A stretch of DNA of 46,403 nucleotides from a virus. The notes below the pieces were generated by a model that was given only the letters and a program-made list of their open reading frames with translations, searched no databases and had not been told where the DNA came from. Positions 14,330 to 41,098 of the stretch are shown here, piece after piece. The stretch spans positions 1 to 46,403 of IMG/VR virus record IMGVR_UViG_3300044591_001885. One strand, 5' to 3'. Position 1 is the first letter of the stretch. Each line of letters begins with the position of its first letter. A program made the translations under genes and the position numbers.

Positions 14330-14338
14330 CTAAATAAT
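14330..14338 (+). promoter_or_regulatory. Late promoter motif CTAAATAAT
   Basis: CTAAATAAT 23 nt before the ATG at 14353. It places the downstream basic protein in the late class, in contrast with its early-type neighbours. Confidence 0.6.
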
Positions 14339-14352
14339 CCAAAAGCAAACTA

Positions 14353-14589
14353 ATGAAATCATTCAAACAATTTCTCTTTGAAGCTAAGAAAAAAAAGAAA
14401 GAGAAACTTTTTAAGGAGATTCGTAAAAGTGTTAAGAAACAAGGGGATTCTCCTGTGGTAAGAATTGATATTGGTTCTAAGCCTAATTCAAAAGAAAGAA
14501 AAGCTGAAATTGAATATATGATGAAGCATCATGGAGTTAGGGCCTTGAAACGACAGTTGGCCAATAATCAAACTGCAAATCAGGAATAA
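14353..14589 (+). CDS. Basic protein with T4-type capsid-targeting N-terminus, candidate internal head protein
   Basis: 78 residues, very basic. The N-terminus MKSFKQFLFEA closely resembles the capsid-targeting sequence of T4 internal proteins (MKTYQEFIAEA). It also contains L-F-E followed by A, matching the (L/I)xE cleavage rule of the gp21 prohead protease. Cleavage would release a Lys-rich peptide starting AKKKKKEK. T4 internal proteins are packaged in the head and injected with DNA, where some block host defence. The late promoter at 14330 fits. Function is inferred from the N-terminus only. Confidence 0.6.
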   Translation: MKSFKQFLFEAKKKKKEKLFKEIRKSVKKQGDSPVVRIDIGSKPNSKERKAEIEYMMKHHGVRALKRQLANNQTANQE

Positions 14590-14822: not shown

Positions 14823-15419
14823 ATGAGAGAACAAATCTATCTCGCCTTGGATCTGGAGTACAATTGCGACGGTAAAAATCCAACTGAAGATATTATTCAA
14901 GTTGGTATCGCAATCGGATCTCCATCTAACAACGTTTTCTTGCAAGAATCGTATCTTGTGAGACCCAAAGATAAAACTGTAACTCTTCATCCTTTTATCA
15001 CAGAACTTACTGGAATTACTCAGGAGACATATGATCAAGAAGCCGTCTCTTGGGAAGTGGTTGTTGATCGTATTGCTAAACTTCATACTCATTACCATCC
15101 ATTTGTGAATCCTGTTACTTGGGGATTGACCGATGCAAGCGATTTAATCAGCACTGTTAAGAGAGAAGGAATTGATTTTCCATTCTTCGGTCGCAGAATT
15201 ATTGATGTTAAGCACTTCTTTCTTTTTATTGAGGCGGCGAAAGGTCGTTCAATGTGTGGTGGTCTTAGAAGCGCAATGAAAAAACATCATCTTAAGTTTA
15301 ATGGAACTCCACATAGAGCTGATGTGGATGCCAATAATACTCTTAGATTCTTCTTTCATCTACTTGAAAGACAATCAATACTAGAAGAAACCGTTAATAA
15401 CATGAAAACCTTGTCATGA
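14823..15419 (+). CDS. DEDDh-type 3'-5' exonuclease (DnaQ-like)
   Basis: 198 residues. Exo I is at LALDLEYN (Asp10, Glu12), exo II is probably around the HPFITELTGIT/WGLTDASDL segments, and exo III reads HRADVDANN (His164, Asp169), the DEDDh signature. Such enzymes trim DNA or RNA 3' ends using two metal ions. In phages they occur apart from the polymerase and may process RNA or degrade host nucleic acid. It is alone behind its own promoter and 78 nt before the RNA ligase, so a role in RNA end processing is possible. Confidence 0.75.
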   Translation: MREQIYLALDLEYNCDGKNPTEDIIQVGIAIGSPSNNVFLQESYLVRPKDKTVTLHPFITELTGITQETYDQEAVSWEVVVDRIAKLHTHYHPFVNPVTWGLTDASDLISTVKREGIDFPFFGRRIIDVKHFFLFIEAAKGRSMCGGLRSAMKKHHLKFNGTPHRADVDANNTLRFFFHLLERQSILEETVNNMKTLS

Positions 15420-20370: not shown

Positions 20371-20863
20371 AGAAAAGGATTGGGATGTTCGTTTGCGAGT
20401 AGCAGGACATCCAAACACATCACCAGAAACATTAGAACTATTAGCGACCGATGAGGAATATAATGTTCGTTGGTCAGTAGCAGCAAATCCCAATACGCCA
20501 CCGAAATCTCTAGAATTACTAGCGACCGATGAGGATCCTGATGTTCGTTATGAAGTAGCAAGAAATCCAAACACTCCACCAAAAGTTCTAGAACAACTAG
20601 CGACCGATATGGATTATCGTGTTCGTTGGCGGGTAGCAAGATCACCAAATATACAACCAAAATTATTAGAAATCTTAGCTACCGATGAGAATCCATATGT
20701 TCGTTGGAACGTAGCATATAATCCAAACACTCCACCAGAAATCCTAGAACATCTAGCAGCCGATGATATATTGGATGTTCGTTATTTTGTATCAAAAAAT
20801 CTAAACACACCACAATACATCAAGAAATATATTAAAATTCAAGAACAACTTCAAAAATTATGA
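20360..20863 (+). CDS. LRV-repeat protein 1
   Basis: 167 residues made of about six 26-residue units of the form NPNTPPxxLExLATDEDxxVRxxVAx, the leucine-rich repeat variant (LRV) pattern, which folds into a right-handed alpha/3-10 solenoid. It begins in mid-repeat (DWDVRLRVAGHPNTS) and lacks the EQAxDPN N-cap of its paralogues. The C-terminal cap NTPQYIKKYIKIQEQL matches the other copies. The most variable positions are the two to four residues between LATD and VR and the two after VR, i.e. one face of the solenoid. TTATGA at the end hands over to the next start codon. Function unknown; protein binding is the usual role of such scaffolds. Confidence 0.85.
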   Translation: MNPEEKDWDVRLRVAGHPNTSPETLELLATDEEYNVRWSVAANPNTPPKSLELLATDEDPDVRYEVARNPNTPPKVLEQLATDMDYRVRWRVARSPNIQPKLLEILATDENPYVRWNVAYNPNTPPEILEHLAADDILDVRYFVSKNLNTPQYIKKYIKIQEQLQKL

Positions 20864-22680: not shown

Positions 22681-23016
22681 ATGGATTACGGATTAATGTC
22701 ATATTCTTTAGTAAGAAATCCAAACACACCACCAAAAGTTCTAGAACAACTAGCTACCGATGAAGAATGGGATGTTCGTTGTTGTGTAGCAAATCATCCA
22801 AATACTCCACCAAAAGCCCTAAAAATTCTAGCGACCGATGAAAATTATTGGGTTCGTGAAGAAGTAGCAAATAATCTAAACACACCATCAACAATATTAG
22901 AACAACTAGCGAGCGATGAGGATTTGATGGTTCGTTATTGGGTCACAAGAAATCTAAACACCCCTCACTACATCAAGAAGTATCTTAAAATTCAAGAACA
23001 ACTGGCAACGTTATGA
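22681..23016 (+). CDS. LRV-repeat protein 2
   Basis: 111 residues with three full LRV units between a short non-repeat N-terminus (MDYGLMSYSLVR) and the cap NTPHYIKKYLKIQEQL. Variable residues again sit beside the VR dipeptide (EEWDVRCC, ENYWVREE, EDLMVRYW). TTATGA overlap with the next gene. Inserted between genes with no evident relation to it. Confidence 0.85.
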   Translation: MDYGLMSYSLVRNPNTPPKVLEQLATDEEWDVRCCVANHPNTPPKALKILATDENYWVREEVANNLNTPSTILEQLASDEDLMVRYWVTRNLNTPHYIKKYLKIQEQLATL

Positions 23017-23333
23017 ACATCATGGAAAAGGAAGAACAATTTCAAAGATTAGAATCATATTTTGATCGTATTAAAAACACTCTTGAATTACGTGGTCCAA
23101 GTCAAGGGTTTATTGAAGAGGTGAGAGAACTTTTAGGATTTTCTCATGTAATAAGTGGAGTTGCTTGCTCAGAATGTGATGGATCAGGATATAAAGTCTA
23201 TGGTTCTACTGCAGGATGGGCCGGAGGCATTGGTGGACAGGTAATAACGACGAGTGTGTGCGATTGTTGTTGGGGGAGTGGAAGAAGTGATAGAAAATTC
23301 GGAGATTTAAGAAAACTTAGATCCATGTCTTAA
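23013..23333 (+). CDS. DnaJ-type CxxCxGxG zinc-finger protein
   Basis: 106 residues. CSECDGSGYK and CDCCWGSGRS, about 27 residues apart, are two CxxCxGxG knuckles as in the DnaJ central zinc domain. No J domain is present. The N-terminal 50 residues form a coiled-coil-like helix. Could be a small chaperone or assembly factor. Its ATG overlaps the LRV 2 stop; a second in-frame ATG (MEKEEQF) lies three codons in. Confidence 0.65.
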   Translation: MNIMEKEEQFQRLESYFDRIKNTLELRGPSQGFIEEVRELLGFSHVISGVACSECDGSGYKVYGSTAGWAGGIGGQVITTSVCDCCWGSGRSDRKFGDLRKLRSMS

Positions 23334-24385: not shown

Positions 24386-24996
24386 TTTCATTATCTGAAA
24401 TGATAACAAAATATAAGATGAATATTACGGGTGTTATTCATATTGGTGCTCATTATGGTGAAGAGATTCCCGAATACATTAAAAATGGAATTTCTGAACT
24501 TCATCTGTTTGAACCTTTATCTGAAAACTATAAAATTTTAAGAAATAATCTTCAAGACCTAGAGATTAATTGGGCAAGTTATAACACTGCATTAGGAAGT
24601 AAAAACGAAAGAGTTACAATGTTCGTCAGTGATAATGAACAACAAAGTAGCTCAATTCTTACACCGAAAGATCATCTAACACATCATCCAAATGTAAGAT
24701 TTCCTACAACAGAAGAGGTTGTGGTTGATACTCTAGATTCTTTTGAAATCGAAAATTGTAACTTCATTAATATGGATGTTCAAGGTTATGAGCTAGAAGT
24801 TCTTAAAGGTGCTACTGAAACTTTAGAACATATTGATTATGTTTATTGTGAAGTCAATAGAGCTGAAGTTTATGAGAATAATGCTTTCGTAGAAGAGATT
24901 GATGAGTTTCTTTCTCAATACAATATGATCAGAGTGGAAACAGATTGGGCAGGAGAAATTTGGGGTGATGCACTTTATGTGAGAACCGAAAGATGA
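24379..24996 (+). CDS. FkbM-type SAM-dependent methyltransferase
   Basis: 205 residues from the ATG at 24379, overlapping the previous gene by 7. VIHIGAHYGEEIPEY is the SAM-binding motif I, ELHLFEPLSENY motif II, and FINMDVQGYELEVLKGA the FkbM signature. FkbM enzymes O-methylate sugars or small molecules, so it may cap a glycan built by the neighbours. Confidence 0.85.
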   Translation: MLISLSEMITKYKMNITGVIHIGAHYGEEIPEYIKNGISELHLFEPLSENYKILRNNLQDLEINWASYNTALGSKNERVTMFVSDNEQQSSSILTPKDHLTHHPNVRFPTTEEVVVDTLDSFEIENCNFINMDVQGYELEVLKGATETLEHIDYVYCEVNRAEVYENNAFVEEIDEFLSQYNMIRVETDWAGEIWGDALYVRTER

Positions 24997-32780: not shown

Positions 32781-33202
32781 TTCTTTCACTTCTACCTAGC
32801 CGTCTTCGTGAAGAGATGACACTAAATCCAAACACACCACCAAAAGTATTAAAAGTTTTAGCGACCGATGAGGATCCTAATGTTCGTTTGTCAGTAGCAA
32901 GAAATCCAAACACACCACCAAAAGCATTAGAACAACTAGCGACTGATGATGATTATTCTATTCGTTATTGGGTAGCAGAAAATCCAAACACACCACCAAA
33001 AGCACTAGAACAACTAGCGACTGAGGAGAATCCTTATGTTCGTTATTATGTAGCAAACCATCCAAACACACCAATAAAAATCCTAGAACAACTAGCTACC
33101 GATAAGGATTCTCTGGTTCGTCGTGGTGTTGTACAAAATCCAAACACACCACCCTATCTCAAGAAGTATCTTAAACTTCAAGAACATCTAAAAACATTAT
33201 GA
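32777..33202 (+). CDS. LRV-repeat protein 3
   Basis: 141 residues from a TTG at 32777, or 128 from the ATG at 32816 (MTLNPNTPP). Four full LRV units plus the cap NTPPYLKKYLKLQEHL. Units 1-3 are nearly identical at DNA level. Bases 32903-32994 are identical to 39654-39745 in LRV 9, a 92-bp perfect match over 6.7 kb. Ends in TTATGA, the ATG starting LRV 4. Confidence 0.85.
   Translation: MILSLLPSRLREEMTLNPNTPPKVLKVLATDEDPNVRLSVARNPNTPPKALEQLATDDDYSIRYWVAENPNTPPKALEQLATEENPYVRYYVANHPNTPIKILEQLATDKDSLVRRGVVQNPNTPPYLKKYLKLQEHLKTL
32903..32994 (+). repeat. 92-bp perfect repeat, copy A
   Basis: Identical base for base to 39654-39745. It covers just over one 78-bp LRV unit. Confidence 0.9.
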
Positions 33203-33450
33203 ACAAATTTGAACAAGCTGGAGATCCAAACACACCACCAGAAGTTCTAGAACAACTAGCGACCGATGAGGAATATTGGGTTCGTCGTGGTGTAGCGTGT
33301 CATTCAAACACATCACCAAAAGCACTAGAACAATTAGCGACCGATGAGCATTATGGTGTTCGTTATAATGTAGCACAAAATCCAAATACACCATGTTACA
33401 TCAAAAAGTATATTAAAATTCAGAAATATCTATCATGTCTACATTTTTAA
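33199..33450 (+). CDS. LRV-repeat protein 4
   Basis: 83 residues with the N-cap MNKFEQAGDPNTPP shared with other copies, two LRV units (EEYWVRRG, EHYGVRYN) and a cap NTPCYIKKYIKIQKYL. Instead of ending at Leu-TGA it reads on into the glutaredoxin start, overlapping it by 16 bases. Coupled to LRV 3 by TTATGA. Confidence 0.8.
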   Translation: MNKFEQAGDPNTPPEVLEQLATDEEYWVRRGVACHSNTSPKALEQLATDEHYGVRYNVAQNPNTPCYIKKYIKIQKYLSCLHF

Positions 33451-35839: not shown

Positions 35840-36319
35840 ATGGACAAACTTGACTTAGCAGAAAATCCAAACACATCACTAGAAATCCTAGAACAACTAG
35901 CAACCGATGAGTGTTATAGGGTTCGTTCCAGAGTAGCACAAAATCCAAATACACCAATAAAAAAACTAGAACTTCTAGTGACCGATGAGGATTGTGGTGT
36001 TCGTTGTTGTGTAGCAAATAACCCAAACACTTCACCAGAAATCCTAGAACAACTAGCGACTGATGATGAATGGTATGTTCGTTATTATGTATCATATAGT
36101 CCAAACGCATCACCGACAACATTAGAAGTTCTAGCGACCGATGAGGAATATTGTGTTCGTGAATGTGTAGCGTATAATCCAAACACTCCAATAAAAACTC
36201 TAGAAATTCTAGCTACCAATGAGGATTATTATGTTCGTCGTAGGGTAGCAAATCATCCAAACACTCCACACTACATTAAGAAGTATCTTAAACTACAAGA
36301 ACATCTGGCGGCGTTATGA
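35840..36319 (+). CDS. LRV-repeat protein 5
   Basis: 159 residues from the ATG at 35840 (MDKLDLAENPNTS). Five to six LRV units and the cap NTPHYIKKYLKLQEHL. Variable residues next to VR include ECYRVRSR, EDCGVRCC, DEWYVRYY and EEYCVREC. Cys and Tyr are frequent there. TTATGA end coupled to the next gene. Confidence 0.85.
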   Translation: MDKLDLAENPNTSLEILEQLATDECYRVRSRVAQNPNTPIKKLELLVTDEDCGVRCCVANNPNTSPEILEQLATDDEWYVRYYVSYSPNASPTTLEVLATDEEYCVRECVAYNPNTPIKTLEILATNEDYYVRRRVANHPNTPHYIKKYLKLQEHLAAL

Positions 36320-36576
36320 ACAAAAAGAAACTAATACTTCATCTTAATAGTATTCAAAATCTTATTGATACCATAAGACTTGAATTAGAAGAGGATGAAA
36401 ATGTTATTGATTCTCAACCAAATAATACCATAAGTATTCCAGATTTTATTAGATCCGCTAATGTTGATTTAGAAGATGATGTTCAATATGCAGAAGAATC
36501 CGATGATGGACCACCAATACTGTTGAATAGTAAGGCCGAGCGAGATTTTTATGAGAGATTTAGATTGGGTGATTGA
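36316..36576 (+). CDS. Acidic hypothetical protein
   Basis: 86 residues: an N-terminal coiled-coil-like helix (KKLILHLNSIQNLIDTIRLELEEDE) and an acidic C-terminus. Its ATG comes from the LRV 5 TTATGA junction. Function unknown. A 50-nt gap with several TATAAT-like words follows. Confidence 0.55.
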   Translation: MNKKKLILHLNSIQNLIDTIRLELEEDENVIDSQPNNTISIPDFIRSANVDLEDDVQYAEESDDGPPILLNSKAERDFYERFRLGD

Positions 36577-36626: not shown

Positions 36627-36920
36627 ATGACCAAATCGTATCTTGACCAACAACATAATAAATGGAAAGAATATTATAATAAATTTCTTTTAGCAAAAAA
36701 TCCAAACACGCCACCGAAAGCACTAGAACAACTAGCGACCGATGAGAATTATTATGTTCGTGTAGGAGTAGCAAGAAATCTAAACACCCCACCAAAAACA
36801 CTAGAACTTTTAGCGACCAATGAGTATTCTAATGTTCGTTGTGAAGTAGCACAAAATCCAAACACACCTCACTACATCAAAAAGTATCTTAAAATTCAAG
36901 AACATCTAAAAACATTATGA
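36627..36920 (+). CDS. LRV-repeat protein 6
   Basis: 97 residues. A unique N-terminus of ~28 residues (MTKSYLDQQHNKWKEYYNKF) replaces the usual cap, then two LRV units and the cap NTPHYIKKYLKIQEHL. TTATGA overlap with LRV 7. Confidence 0.82.
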   Translation: MTKSYLDQQHNKWKEYYNKFLLAKNPNTPPKALEQLATDENYYVRVGVARNLNTPPKTLELLATNEYSNVRCEVAQNPNTPHYIKKYLKIQEHLKTL

Positions 36921-39136
36921 GCAAACTTGAACAAGCTAAAGATCCAAACTCTTCACCCAAAACTCTAGAGCTTCTAGCGACCGATGAGGATTATCGTGTC
37001 CGTATTGTTGTAGCAGAAAATCTAAACACTCCACCAAAAATCCTAGAACAACTAGCGACTGATGAGGATTATTGGGTTCGTTATAATGTAGCGAGTCATC
37101 CAAACACATCATCAGAAACTCTAACACTTCTAGCGACCGATGAGCATTATCTTGTTCGTCGTAGTGTGGCACGAAATCCAAACACACCACCAAAAACACT
37201 GGAACTTCTAGTGACCGATGAGGATTGGGCTACTCGTTCGTATGTGGGAAAAAATCCAAACACAACACCAGAAATTCTAGAACAACTAGCTACTGATGAA
37301 AATGGACGTGTTCGTGAGGATGTTGTGGTTCACCCGAACACACCACCAACAGCATTAGAACTTTTAGCTACTGATGAGCTTTCTGATGTTCGCAGAGGAG
37401 TAGCACAAAATCCAAACACTTCAACAGAAATCCTAGAACAACTAGCGACCGATAAGTATTATTCTGTTCGTTGGAGAGTAGCAGAAAACCCAAACACTTC
37501 ATCAGAAATCCTAGGAGTTTTAGCGACTGATGTAGATTGTATTCGCGTAACTGTGGTAAGACATCCTAACACTTCATTAAAAATATTAGAGAAACTAGCG
37601 AGCGATGAGATTGCTTGGGTTCGTGAAAGTGTAGCAAGAAATCCAAACACACCACCAAAAGCCCTAGAACTTCTAGCATCCGATGATGAACTTGATGTTC
37701 GTAAGAATGTAGCACGAAATCCAAACACTCCACCAGAAACTTTAGAACTTCTAGCGACCGATAGGTATTATTCTGTCCGGCGGAAAGTGGCACAAAACCC
37801 AAACACTTCATCAGAAATTCTAGAACAGCTAGCTACCGATGTAGATTATTCTGCTCTTCGGGCCACAGCATCAGATCCAAACACTCCACCAGAAATTCTA
37901 AAAATTCTAGCAACCAATGAGGATTCTTTGGTTCGTGAAGAGGTAGCAAGAAATTCAAACACACCATCAGAAACTCTAGAAATCCTAGCGACCGATGAGT
38001 ATTTGGGTGATAGTGTGTATCTTCGGATACCGGGTTATTGTAATCCATCTGAGGGTTTAATGGGTGAATTATTGAAAAAAAATAGGAAAGTGAATCTAAT
38101 AAAAGTGGTTCGTTATTATGTCACACAAAATGAAAATACTGCAATGGATACATTGGAGAAGCTTTCTTTTGATGATGATAGTAGGATTAGATCTTGTATC
38201 GCTAGGAATTGGAATGTAAATAATACTATCTTAAAACGGTTATCGTTTGATACTGATCCTGTTGTTAGAGCATTTGTAGCAGAAAATCCTAACACTGATG
38301 TTGAGTGCTTAGATAGTTTATGGAATGATGATAATGTTTCTGTCAGATCCAATCTTGCAAGAAACCCAAATATCTCTAAAGGTACTCAATACAAACTTTC
38401 TTATGATAGTGCGAAAGAAGTTCGTCTTAGTCTTGTTCGGAATGAAAATATTGCTACTAAAATTCTATACCGAATGTATCACTATTTTAGTGGTGAAATT
38501 AGATATTATATTGCACTTAATCCTAAAACTCCATTTGATCTTTTAAATCTCCTCATTAAAGAATATCCAGAAGAAGTAGCAAAACATCCAAATGCTTCTT
38601 TGGGAATGTTGTATCATTTATCCAAGAATGATTATGGTTATGTTAAGGAAAATGTTATGCAGAATCCAAGCACTCCAGATTATCTAAAAAAGGAGATAGA
38701 AGAAAATAGGAGATTATTTATTAAAAAACTTAGGCAGTCAGAGAATCCGAATACTCCACAAGATATTTTGGAACAATTGGCAACTGATAAGAATTCGGTT
38801 ATTCGTTACAATGTGGCAAAAAATTCAAGCACCCAACCAAAAACATTAGAATTATTAGCGTCCGATGATGTTTACAGAGTCCGTAAAAATACAGTACGAG
38901 ATCCGAACGCACAACCAAAACCTCCAATAGAACAAGCTAAAGATCCAAACTCTTCACCCAAAACTCTAGAGCTTCTAGCGACCAATGATGATCCTATTGT
39001 TCGTTGGGGTGTAGCACAAAACAGACACACTCCACCAAAAACATTAGAACTTTTAGCATTAGATAAAAACCACATGGTTCGTGCTACGGCAATAAACAAC
39101 CCAAGTTGCCCGATTAATTGGAAACTAGAGATTTAG
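36917..39136 (+). CDS. Giant LRV-repeat protein 7 (about 25 units)
   Basis: 739 residues. Residues 1-360 carry ~13 regular 26-residue LRV units; unit 8 has one residue fewer. Around residues 370-405 an insertion (YLGDSVYLRIPGYCNPSEG...) interrupts the pattern. Residues 405-600 hold older, diverged units ending in NPSTPDYLKKEIEEN, a degenerate internal C-cap. Then fresh units resume, including an internal EQAKDPNSSPKTLELLAT identical to the N-cap. The protein ends INNPSCPINWKLEI without the usual cap. It appears to be a fusion of at least two LRV genes. Long solenoids of this sort bind proteins; target unknown. Confidence 0.85.
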   Translation: MSKLEQAKDPNSSPKTLELLATDEDYRVRIVVAENLNTPPKILEQLATDEDYWVRYNVASHPNTSSETLTLLATDEHYLVRRSVARNPNTPPKTLELLVTDEDWATRSYVGKNPNTTPEILEQLATDENGRVREDVVVHPNTPPTALELLATDELSDVRRGVAQNPNTSTEILEQLATDKYYSVRWRVAENPNTSSEILGVLATDVDCIRVTVVRHPNTSLKILEKLASDEIAWVRESVARNPNTPPKALELLASDDELDVRKNVARNPNTPPETLELLATDRYYSVRRKVAQNPNTSSEILEQLATDVDYSALRATASDPNTPPEILKILATNEDSLVREEVARNSNTPSETLEILATDEYLGDSVYLRIPGYCNPSEGLMGELLKKNRKVNLIKVVRYYVTQNENTAMDTLEKLSFDDDSRIRSCIARNWNVNNTILKRLSFDTDPVVRAFVAENPNTDVECLDSLWNDDNVSVRSNLARNPNISKGTQYKLSYDSAKEVRLSLVRNENIATKILYRMYHYFSGEIRYYIALNPKTPFDLLNLLIKEYPEEVAKHPNASLGMLYHLSKNDYGYVKENVMQNPSTPDYLKKEIEENRRLFIKKLRQSENPNTPQDILEQLATDKNSVIRYNVAKNSSTQPKTLELLASDDVYRVRKNTVRDPNAQPKPPIEQAKDPNSSPKTLELLATNDDPIVRWGVAQNRHTPPKTLELLALDKNHMVRATAINNPSCPINWKLEI
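36929..36982 (+). repeat. 54-bp perfect repeat, copy A (N-cap of LRV 7)
   Basis: Identical to 38930-38983 in the 3' part of the same gene. Confidence 0.9.
38930..38983 (+). repeat. 54-bp perfect repeat, copy B (internal N-cap)
   Basis: An N-terminal cap sequence now lies inside LRV 7, in frame, following a Pro-rich joint (AQPKPPIEQAK). It marks where another LRV gene start was fused. Confidence 0.9.
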
Positions 39137-39153
39137 AAACAATCATGAATATT

Positions 39154-39477
39154 ATGAATAAACTTGAACAAGCTAACGATCCAAACACTTCACCAGAAAT
39201 CCTAGAACTATTGGCGTCTGATGATGATTATTGGGTTCGTTGGAACGTAGCATATAATCCAAACACTCCTCTACATATTCTAGAGCAACTAGCGACAGAT
39301 GGGTATTATGGTGTTCGTTATTGGGTAGCAAGAAATCCAAACACACCACCAAAAACACTAGAACTTTTAGTGACCGATAAGAGTTCTGATGTTCGTTTGA
39401 TGGTAACACGAAACTCAAACACACCTCACTATCTCAAAAAGTATATTAAAATTCAAGAACAACTGGTAACGTTATGA
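39154..39477 (+). CDS. LRV-repeat protein 8
   Basis: 107 residues from the ATG at 39154, which gives the N-cap MNKLEQANDPNTS as in paralogues; an ATG at 39145 is also possible. Three LRV units and the cap NTPHYLKKYIKIQEQL. TTATGA handing over to LRV 9. Confidence 0.82.
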   Translation: MNKLEQANDPNTSPEILELLASDDDYWVRWNVAYNPNTPLHILEQLATDGYYGVRYWVARNPNTPPKTLELLVTDKSSDVRLMVTRNSNTPHYLKKYIKIQEQLVTL

Positions 39478-39770
39478 GCAAACTTAAACAAGCTAGAGAT
39501 CCAAATACACCACCAAAAGCCCTAGAACAATTAGCGACTGATAAGAGTTCTCTTGTTCGTTGTAGAGTAGCAAGAAATCCAAACACACCACCAAAAGTCC
39601 TAGAACAACTAGCGACTGATGATGATTATTCTATTCGTTATTGGGTAGCATGTAATCCAAACACACCACCAAAAGCATTAGAACAACTAGCGACTGATGA
39701 TGATTATTCTATTCGTTATTGGGTAGCAGAAAATCCAAACACACCCCCACTATCTTTAAAAGTATATTAA
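39474..39770 (+). CDS. LRV-repeat protein 9 with degenerate C-terminus
   Basis: 98 residues with N-cap MSKLKQARDPNTPP and three LRV units, of which the last two are almost identical in DNA. The reading frame is lost in the cap: an extra C in the run after AACACA (39740-39747) shifts the frame. Even with that removed, two substitutions create a TAA in place of the Lys codon, and the final TTATGA has become TTATAA. The intact cap would have run to about 39798. Possibly a decaying copy; the repeats themselves remain open. Confidence 0.75.
   Translation: MSKLKQARDPNTPPKALEQLATDKSSLVRCRVARNPNTPPKVLEQLATDDDYSIRYWVACNPNTPPKALEQLATDDDYSIRYWVAENPNTPPLSLKVY
39654..39745 (+). repeat. 92-bp perfect repeat, copy B
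   Basis: Identical to 32903-32994 in LRV 3. Confidence 0.9.
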
Positions 39771-39823
39771 ACTACAAGATCATCTAAAAACATTATAAAC
39801 ACATTAATCAGGAGAATATTTAA

Positions 39824-41098
39824 ATGCTCGGTAAACTGCTAGATTCTATTAATAAGCTTCTACCAAAAAAACAAAATAGCAAAAGTGATCCAGAACTACC
39901 AAAAGTAAAACTCGTCTCCATTACTCAAGGTGCAGGAGATCTTATGCATACTAGCGCCCAAGAAGTTATTTCATATATTGCCAGAGTGAGTAATCCAAAT
40001 AATCAACTCAATTTTGATACAGCAGAGGGTCTTATTCGTTATTGCATTAAAAACAAACATGTGAGCATTTTTGAACATGCTTATATGACTCTTGAGATTA
40101 ATACAACGAGAGCTATTGCGGCTCAGATTTTGAGACATAGAAGTTTTACATTTCAAGAATTTTGTATGGTAGGAAGTACAAATGTTTATTTTGATCTTCC
40201 TGCAACATTAAAGGATAATAAAAGAAGACTTTATAAGTCTACTCTAGAAGAACTTTATAGAAAATGGACCAAAAGTGAGTATCATCGGAATCGTGTAAAA
40301 AAAATGAATGTGAGGATTTTCGATGAAAAAACTCGTACCTTCACTAATTCACACATCAAAGAAGTTTTTAAGACCGGGGTTAAAGAAATTTTTGAATTTA
40401 CCTTAGAAAATGGTAAAGTTATTCGTTGCACCAAAGAACATAAGGTTCTTACGCAAGATGGATTTAAATCCTTAGAAGAACATCTTGGGTTAAAATTAAT
40501 TGATAATATCGCAGTAATCTCAAATAATGACTATATTGGCTGTAGCGGAGTATCAGAGAATACACTATCAGTAAAATGGTCTAAGGTTAAATCCGTAAAG
40601 TATCTTTGTCAGCAAATGACTTATGATCTAGAGGTAGACCATGATTCTCATAATTATGTTGCAGATGGTGTTGTTGTTCACAATAGCCAACGGTATATGG
40701 ACATAACCGCTCTTTCCGATAATCCATTAATTCCTGAACTAAGACGACAAGATAATAAGAATCGGCAAAATTCTATTGATGATTTTTCCGAAGATGAACA
40801 ATTAAAAATACAAAAAGAGATTCAGCAGTATTTTGATACTGGTATGAAGCTCTATGAAAAATTACTCTCAAACGGTGTCGCAAAAGAGTGTGCAAGATTT
40901 ATTCTGCCATTATCAACTCCAACAAGAATTTATATGACTGGTAACGTAAGATCTTGGATAACTTATATTGCTCTTAGAGAAAAGAATGGAACTCAGAAAG
41001 AACACATGGACATTGCCAAGGCATGTAAAGAAATCTTTGCGGAGCAGTTTCCAACCTGTTATGAGGCTCTCGGAGGAGACGAAGAATGGTCAATCTAA
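39824..41098 (+). CDS. thyX: Flavin-dependent thymidylate synthase ThyX containing an intein
   Basis: 424 residues before splicing, about 250 after. An AGGAG SD precedes the ATG. ThyX makes dTMP from dUMP with methylenetetrahydrofolate and FAD. Residues 1-113 and 288-424 are the enzyme; the signature RHRSFTFQEF-SQRY is interrupted after EF by the intein (residues 114-287). Other ThyX features are HVSIFEHAYMTLEI and the C-terminal ARFILPLSTPTRIYMTGNVRSW. A TATAAACA word 30 nt before the ATG may be a late-type promoter. The gene directly follows the degenerate LRV 9. Confidence 0.93.
   Translation: MLGKLLDSINKLLPKKQNSKSDPELPKVKLVSITQGAGDLMHTSAQEVISYIARVSNPNNQLNFDTAEGLIRYCIKNKHVSIFEHAYMTLEINTTRAIAAQILRHRSFTFQEFCMVGSTNVYFDLPATLKDNKRRLYKSTLEELYRKWTKSEYHRNRVKKMNVRIFDEKTRTFTNSHIKEVFKTGVKEIFEFTLENGKVIRCTKEHKVLTQDGFKSLEEHLGLKLIDNIAVISNNDYIGCSGVSENTLSVKWSKVKSVKYLCQQMTYDLEVDHDSHNYVADGVVVHNSQRYMDITALSDNPLIPELRRQDNKNRQNSIDDFSEDEQLKIQKEIQQYFDTGMKLYEKLLSNGVAKECARFILPLSTPTRIYMTGNVRSWITYIALREKNGTQKEHMDIAKACKEIFAEQFPTCYEALGGDEEWSI
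40163..40684 (+). mobile_element. Mini-intein in ThyX (174 residues)
   Basis: Begins with Cys114 after RHRSFTFQEF and ends VVVHN, with Ser as the +1 extein residue. Block B reads GKVIRCTKEHKVLT (T..H) and block F TYDLEVDHDSHNYVADG. The length and absence of a LAGLIDADG or HNH motif mean no homing endonuclease. Block A (CMVGSTNVYFDLP) is atypical compared with the usual CLxGDT-like start. Confidence 0.9.

Follow-up and report, generated by a model that had tools for sequence, protein, structure and literature searches.

A probable internal head protein bearing a T4-type capsid-targeting sequence in a T4-like cyanophage

The locus and its relatives

The window analysed here is the whole of a 46,403-nucleotide stretch of viral DNA (IMG/VR record IMGVR_UViG_3300044591_001885, positions 1 to 46,403). 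One of its small genes encodes a 78-aa protein, called P0001 below, which begins MKSFKQFLFEAKKKKK and reads MKSFKQFLFEAKKKKKEKLFKEIRKSVKKQGDSPVVRIDIGSKPNSKERKAEIEYMMKHHGVRALKRQLANNQTANQE in full (Table 1). The part behind the N-terminus had been described as Lys-rich in a first-pass annotation made from the letters alone, and indeed the protein contains 17 Lys and has a pI of 10.3. The open reading frame is a real coding gene. Homologues were found in two uncultured phages, G001 (179.5 kb) and G002 (100 kb), with 95 and 67% amino acid identity, respectively. Comparison of the window with G002 gave dN of 0.21 and dS of 1.43, that is, dN/dS of about 0.15, which together with the conservation rules out a non-coding or chance reading frame. 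In both genomes the homologue directly precedes the same RNase_T exonuclease gene, and the window and G001 share long aligned stretches with about 87–95% DNA identity. In G002, the linker that follows the N-terminal tag is variable; the core behind it is kept. This core is helical in an AlphaFold model, run with three sequences, whose confidence is low (pLDDT 70.8, pTM 0.32).

Table 1. Features of the window around P0001, with other genes mentioned in the text
Feature	Position	Strand	Basis or remark
Late-promoter-like motif CTAAATA	14330..14336	+	16 nt before the start codon, with no change in G001
CDS of the CTS-bearing basic protein (P0001)	14353..14589	+	Translation, relatives, dN/dS against G002
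Capsid-targeting sequence (CTS) propeptide MKSFKQFLFE	14353..14382	+	Matches MKTYQEFIAE of T4 IPII/IPIII; gp21 cut predicted after E10
Mature protein as predicted, 68 aa, starting at A11	14383..14586	+	pI 10.3, net charge +12
Conserved core, residues 36-69 (VRIDIGSKPNSKERKAEIEYMMKHHGVRALKRQL)	14458..14559	+	30/34 residues the same in G002
RNase_T-type exonuclease gene (context only)	14823..15419	+	Next 3' neighbour; next downstream in all three relatives
739-aa leucine-rich-variant (LRV)/HEAT repeat protein	36917-39136		
Shorter stretches similar to the LRV gene at the DNA level	20386-20863, 22717-23055, 32825-33393, 35856-36321, 39179-39800		
ThyX thymidylate synthase split by an intein-like splicing domain	39824-41098		Pfam and PHROG matches

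More distant relatives were reached only with the core alone as query, and then with a profile; when the phage collection was searched by tblastn with the full-length protein, there was no match. The three-sequence profile detected an 85-aa protein of Synechococcus phage S-SRM01 (QPX48083.1, MITFRQFLNLVEGKKKEL...; E=1.3e-9) and gp228 of Synechococcus phage B23 (E=2.3e-5). QPX48083.1, annotated as hypothetical, resembles P0001 in its MITFRQFLNLVEG start with an LxE site, its K-rich stretch and its PNSPER...MM core, but it is diverged and its tag is two residues longer. B23 gp228 has the core but lacks the tag, and therefore the core can be made without it. No relative of P0001 was found in cellular genomes, and sequence searches of Pfam, PHROGs, NCBIfam and PDB returned nothing usable; PHROG matches at E 0.03-0.08 were treated as chance. 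The family is unnamed in Pfam, PHROGs and NCBIfam, and is of a kind already known from T4. G001 and B23 share 71.5% identity in the major capsid protein, which identifies the phage as a T4-like cyanophage near Kyanoviridae, and the host of the window phage would be a cyanobacterium.

Elsewhere in the window, the ThyX reading frame matches Pfam Intein_splicing at residues 138-287 and then Thy1, with PHROG thymidylate synthase families on both sides. Genes similar to the LRV gene are scattered throughout G001 and G002.

The capsid-targeting sequence, its surroundings and the prohead protease

The first-pass annotation aligned MKSFKQFLFEA of P0001 with MKTYQEFIAEA of T4 internal proteins and saw in it an LxE cleavage site. 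The alignment holds, as both IPII and IPIII in the T4 reference genome begin with MKTYQEFIAEA, and the site is present as L8-F9-E10|A11. In T4, residues 4 and 7 of the CTS matter most for targeting, and residues 8 and 10 for processing (PMC9026906). The corresponding residues F4, F7, L8 and E10 are invariant among the relatives of P0001, so that the protein has an N-terminal CTS of about ten residues with the four key residues and a terminal LxE. Between the window and G002, 9 of 11 tag residues are kept, and only positions 5 and 9 are changed. The site reads LFE|A in the window protein, LAE|A in G002 and LVE|G in S-SRM01. Of the 344 ATG-initiated reading frames in the window that reach 40 aa or more, one matches a strict version of the motif, as against about 3e-6 matches expected (0.04 for a looser version), both expectations being rough because the motif definitions were drawn up with the P0001 sequence in view. 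Another CTS-like N-terminus, MKTLNDYFDE at 24993, matches only the relaxed motif and is likely a false positive; the residues that follow it in this 212-aa reading frame (IYCINLDRRVDRW) recall glycosyltransferases, and it was set aside.

T4-type internal head proteins are expected to be small and basic when mature, and predicted mature P0001 fits this description. IPII and IPIII share with it the tag (MKTYQEFIAE|A) with the LxE site, small size, basic charge and a gene located off the head cluster. However, no similarity is detectable past the tag, and the P0001 profile finds nothing in T4. IPI is likewise short and basic with a CTS-like N-terminus (MKTFKEF), and its gene adjoins tRNA genes, but IPI* has a mixed alpha/beta fold (PMC3012670), whereas P0001 is predicted, at low confidence, to be all-helical.

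It had also been observed that a late promoter motif precedes the gene although the surroundings are of early type. The CTAAATA motif is indeed there, and TAAATA is found upstream of the homologue in G002 as well. In G001, TAAATA stands before 9 of 14 virion genes, which were picked by hand, as against 27 of 153 other genes (P=0.0004; P=0.01 for the stricter CTAAATA). The other CTS genes of G001 have no TAAATA directly upstream, so that the motif is supporting but not decisive. The early-type surroundings are no anomaly, since in T4, too, the ip genes are found away from the head cluster, with tRNA genes, e and other small genes around them.

Cleavage of such a tag calls for a prohead protease, the lack of which in the genome had been named as evidence against the proposal. 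G001 encodes gp21 (PF03420, E=1.9e-32), the gp22-type scaffold protein and gp23 in the usual order, and its gp23 reads LTE|S at the position equivalent to LTE|A of T4 gp23. No gp21 gene was found in the 46-kb window. This is uninformative because the window is a genome fragment, and its counterpart in G001 starts some 40 kb away from gp21.

Tagged proteins in other phages and in cyanophage virions

The first-pass annotation had proposed a search for other proteins with the same N-terminus, and four more CTS proteins were found in G001. One, at 71427, is NMNAT/cytidylyltransferase-like (MKSFRQFLSEA); the contig start encodes a metalloprotease-like protein (MKKYTEFLTES) and two others beginning MKTYREFMAEA and MKTFRQFITEA. 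The three adjacent CTS proteins at this contig end (L005 1-1221, minus strand) include a small HELVH metalloprotease-like protein, and a similar pair of CTS proteins is present in B23 at about 123 kb.

The specificity of the tag was seen with a DNA pattern for the CTS in nine phage genomes including T4. In T4 it matches exactly ipII and ipIII and nothing else, and seven of the eight cyanophages have one to four matches each. Two further phage genomes behaved in the same way, and the reversed pattern, used as a control, had no match in the 11 phage genomes. In viral contigs at least 81 matches were obtained, and all 81 listed are open in frame with no stop before 40 aa. Among the matches listed, 44 are NMNAT-like, and the other 33 proteins (at least 40 aa) are varied; 28 of these 33 have a pI of 9 or more, as against 23 of 178 background reading frames. 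Such basic charge is as expected of internal head proteins. gp21 was found in 8 of the 13 longer contigs with matches (again among the matches listed), many of which are fragments.

Several proteins, including those encoded at L008 10407-11417, L005 1205-1783, L140 3926-4384 and L142 41127-41747, share a module of about 35 aa (..YLI.E.F..SE..A..IM..MSEEW..SIL.E), and four of these proteins are encoded beside CTS genes. It may be a further module linked to the head. When it was considered as an additional virion tag, no copy was found in S-CREM2.

The tag can be calibrated with cyanophages whose virion proteins are recorded. The virion proteome of S-CREM2 includes non-structural proteins (PMC10665884). 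All three strict-motif reading frames of this phage, SAM hydrolase gp6 (MKDFDSFLEE), kinase gp14 (VKRFDAFLTE) and NMNAT gp154 (MKNFSSFLTEA), were detected in the virion by mass spectrometry, as compared with 52 of 219 proteins overall (P=0.013). With the relaxed motif, which was defined after the S-CREM2 data had been seen, the count is five of six (P=0.003). S-SCSM1 has two motif proteins: NMNAT QFG06348.1 (MKSFLQFLKEA) is annotated as a virion protein, and the other has no virion annotation. QFG06348.1 and gp154, both NMNAT/cytidylyltransferases, have the same N-terminal tag as P0001 and are themselves virion-detected, but they are large enzymes unrelated to it in the rest of the sequence. 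The authors of the S-CREM2 study warn of possible co-purification (PMC10665884); this caveat aside, detection in the two virions calibrates the CTS within the same phage family.

Cas9 of S-CREM2 (gp12; L169 7704-10313), also virion-detected, contains a displaced CTS-like sequence, RFASFMAEA, which lies close to the N-terminus but away from the annotated start. This Cas9 is possibly packaged in the phage head.

Packaging and possible roles of P0001

The most likely reading of P0001 is that it belongs to the T4-type internal head proteins, in a T4-like, Kyanoviridae-related cyanophage, and is cleaved, associated with DNA and probably ejected. The T4-type head targeting suggested at first reading is well supported by the conserved functional positions, gp21 in G001, the sibling CTS proteins and the virion detection in cyanophages. 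The first ten residues would attach the precursor to the scaffold core within the prohead. Once gp21 had cut behind LFE10, the head would contain a helical, strongly basic protein of 68 residues. With its charge of +12, the mature protein would associate with the packaged DNA, and by analogy with T4 it may then be ejected into the host together with this DNA. Cleavage and DNA association are predicted here from sequence; P0001 is very probably packaged, because the same tag is borne by many unrelated proteins of relatives, several of them virion-detected.

It could be argued that P0001 acts early inside the cell as a regulator and is not packaged, its N-terminus being CTS-like by chance or descent. 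The surrounding genes are early or metabolic, and the core relative in B23 lacks the tag, in line with this possibility. However, relatives with 67% identity keep the tag at precisely those residues that matter for its function, the CTS pattern is specific, G001 has four sibling CTS proteins, and a late motif precedes the gene; such a regulator is thus quite improbable. Another explanation is a component of the core or scaffold stage, like T4 gp67, which aids head assembly or DNA condensation and is not sent into the host to act there. P0001 is very basic and helical with a late-type promoter motif, and in T4 loss of IPIII slows head assembly (PMC9026906). Against it, T4 proteins bearing the CTS are ejected, and the gene is far from the head cluster, beside nucleotide-metabolism genes, just like the T4 ip genes. 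We regard a purely assembly-related role as doubtful.

If P0001 is an ejected internal head protein, the question is what it does afterward, and one special case is an injected anti-defence protein; the first-pass annotation had suggested that P0001 may be a pre-loaded anti-defence or DNA-handling factor. T4 Ip1, Ip2 and Ip3 each inhibit a GmrSD-type (Type IV) restriction enzyme (PMC12373910), and P0001 shares tag, size class and basic charge with the T4 internal proteins. As all three T4 proteins act on GmrSD enzymes, P0001 may have such a role, too. Searches with the mature protein for known inhibitors gave no match in Pfam, NCBIfam or PDB, no useful one in PHROGs and nothing in the T4 genome. 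A sequence match to Ip1-3 was not expected, since these share only the tag with one another (PMC12373910). The core evolves slowly (dN/dS as above); in T4, by contrast, the internal proteins show little conservation from one related phage to another. Thus P0001 does not look like a fast-evolving arms-race inhibitor, as judged from its sequence, and defence inhibition appears unlikely. A core conserved in this way points instead to a target that is itself stable, for example DNA or host machinery. For the time after ejection we therefore tentatively favour DNA handling or early modulation of the host over defence inhibition.

Beyond P0001, which extends the internal proteins by a hitherto unnamed family, the CTS may well serve T4-like cyanophages as a general label for cargo, by which a varied load would travel into the host with the DNA and act ahead of any phage gene expression. 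The proposed cargo would comprise SAM hydrolase, kinase and NMNAT-like enzymes, and possibly Cas9, metalloproteases and small basic proteins like P0001. In the open-access literature searched, capsid targeting in combination with cyanophages led only to a review on T4, and general CTS use in cyanophages seems to be undescribed within that literature. If true, this reading would explain why non-structural proteins are repeatedly found in cyanophage virions by proteomics. The CTS offers a simple rule, readable from sequence, for predicting which proteins are carried in the heads of T4-like cyanophages, and this rule accounts for the virion enzymes of S-CREM2 and S-SCSM1 that the authors could not distinguish from contaminants. 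The rule makes pre-loaded host takeover directly testable in an ecologically major group of phages.
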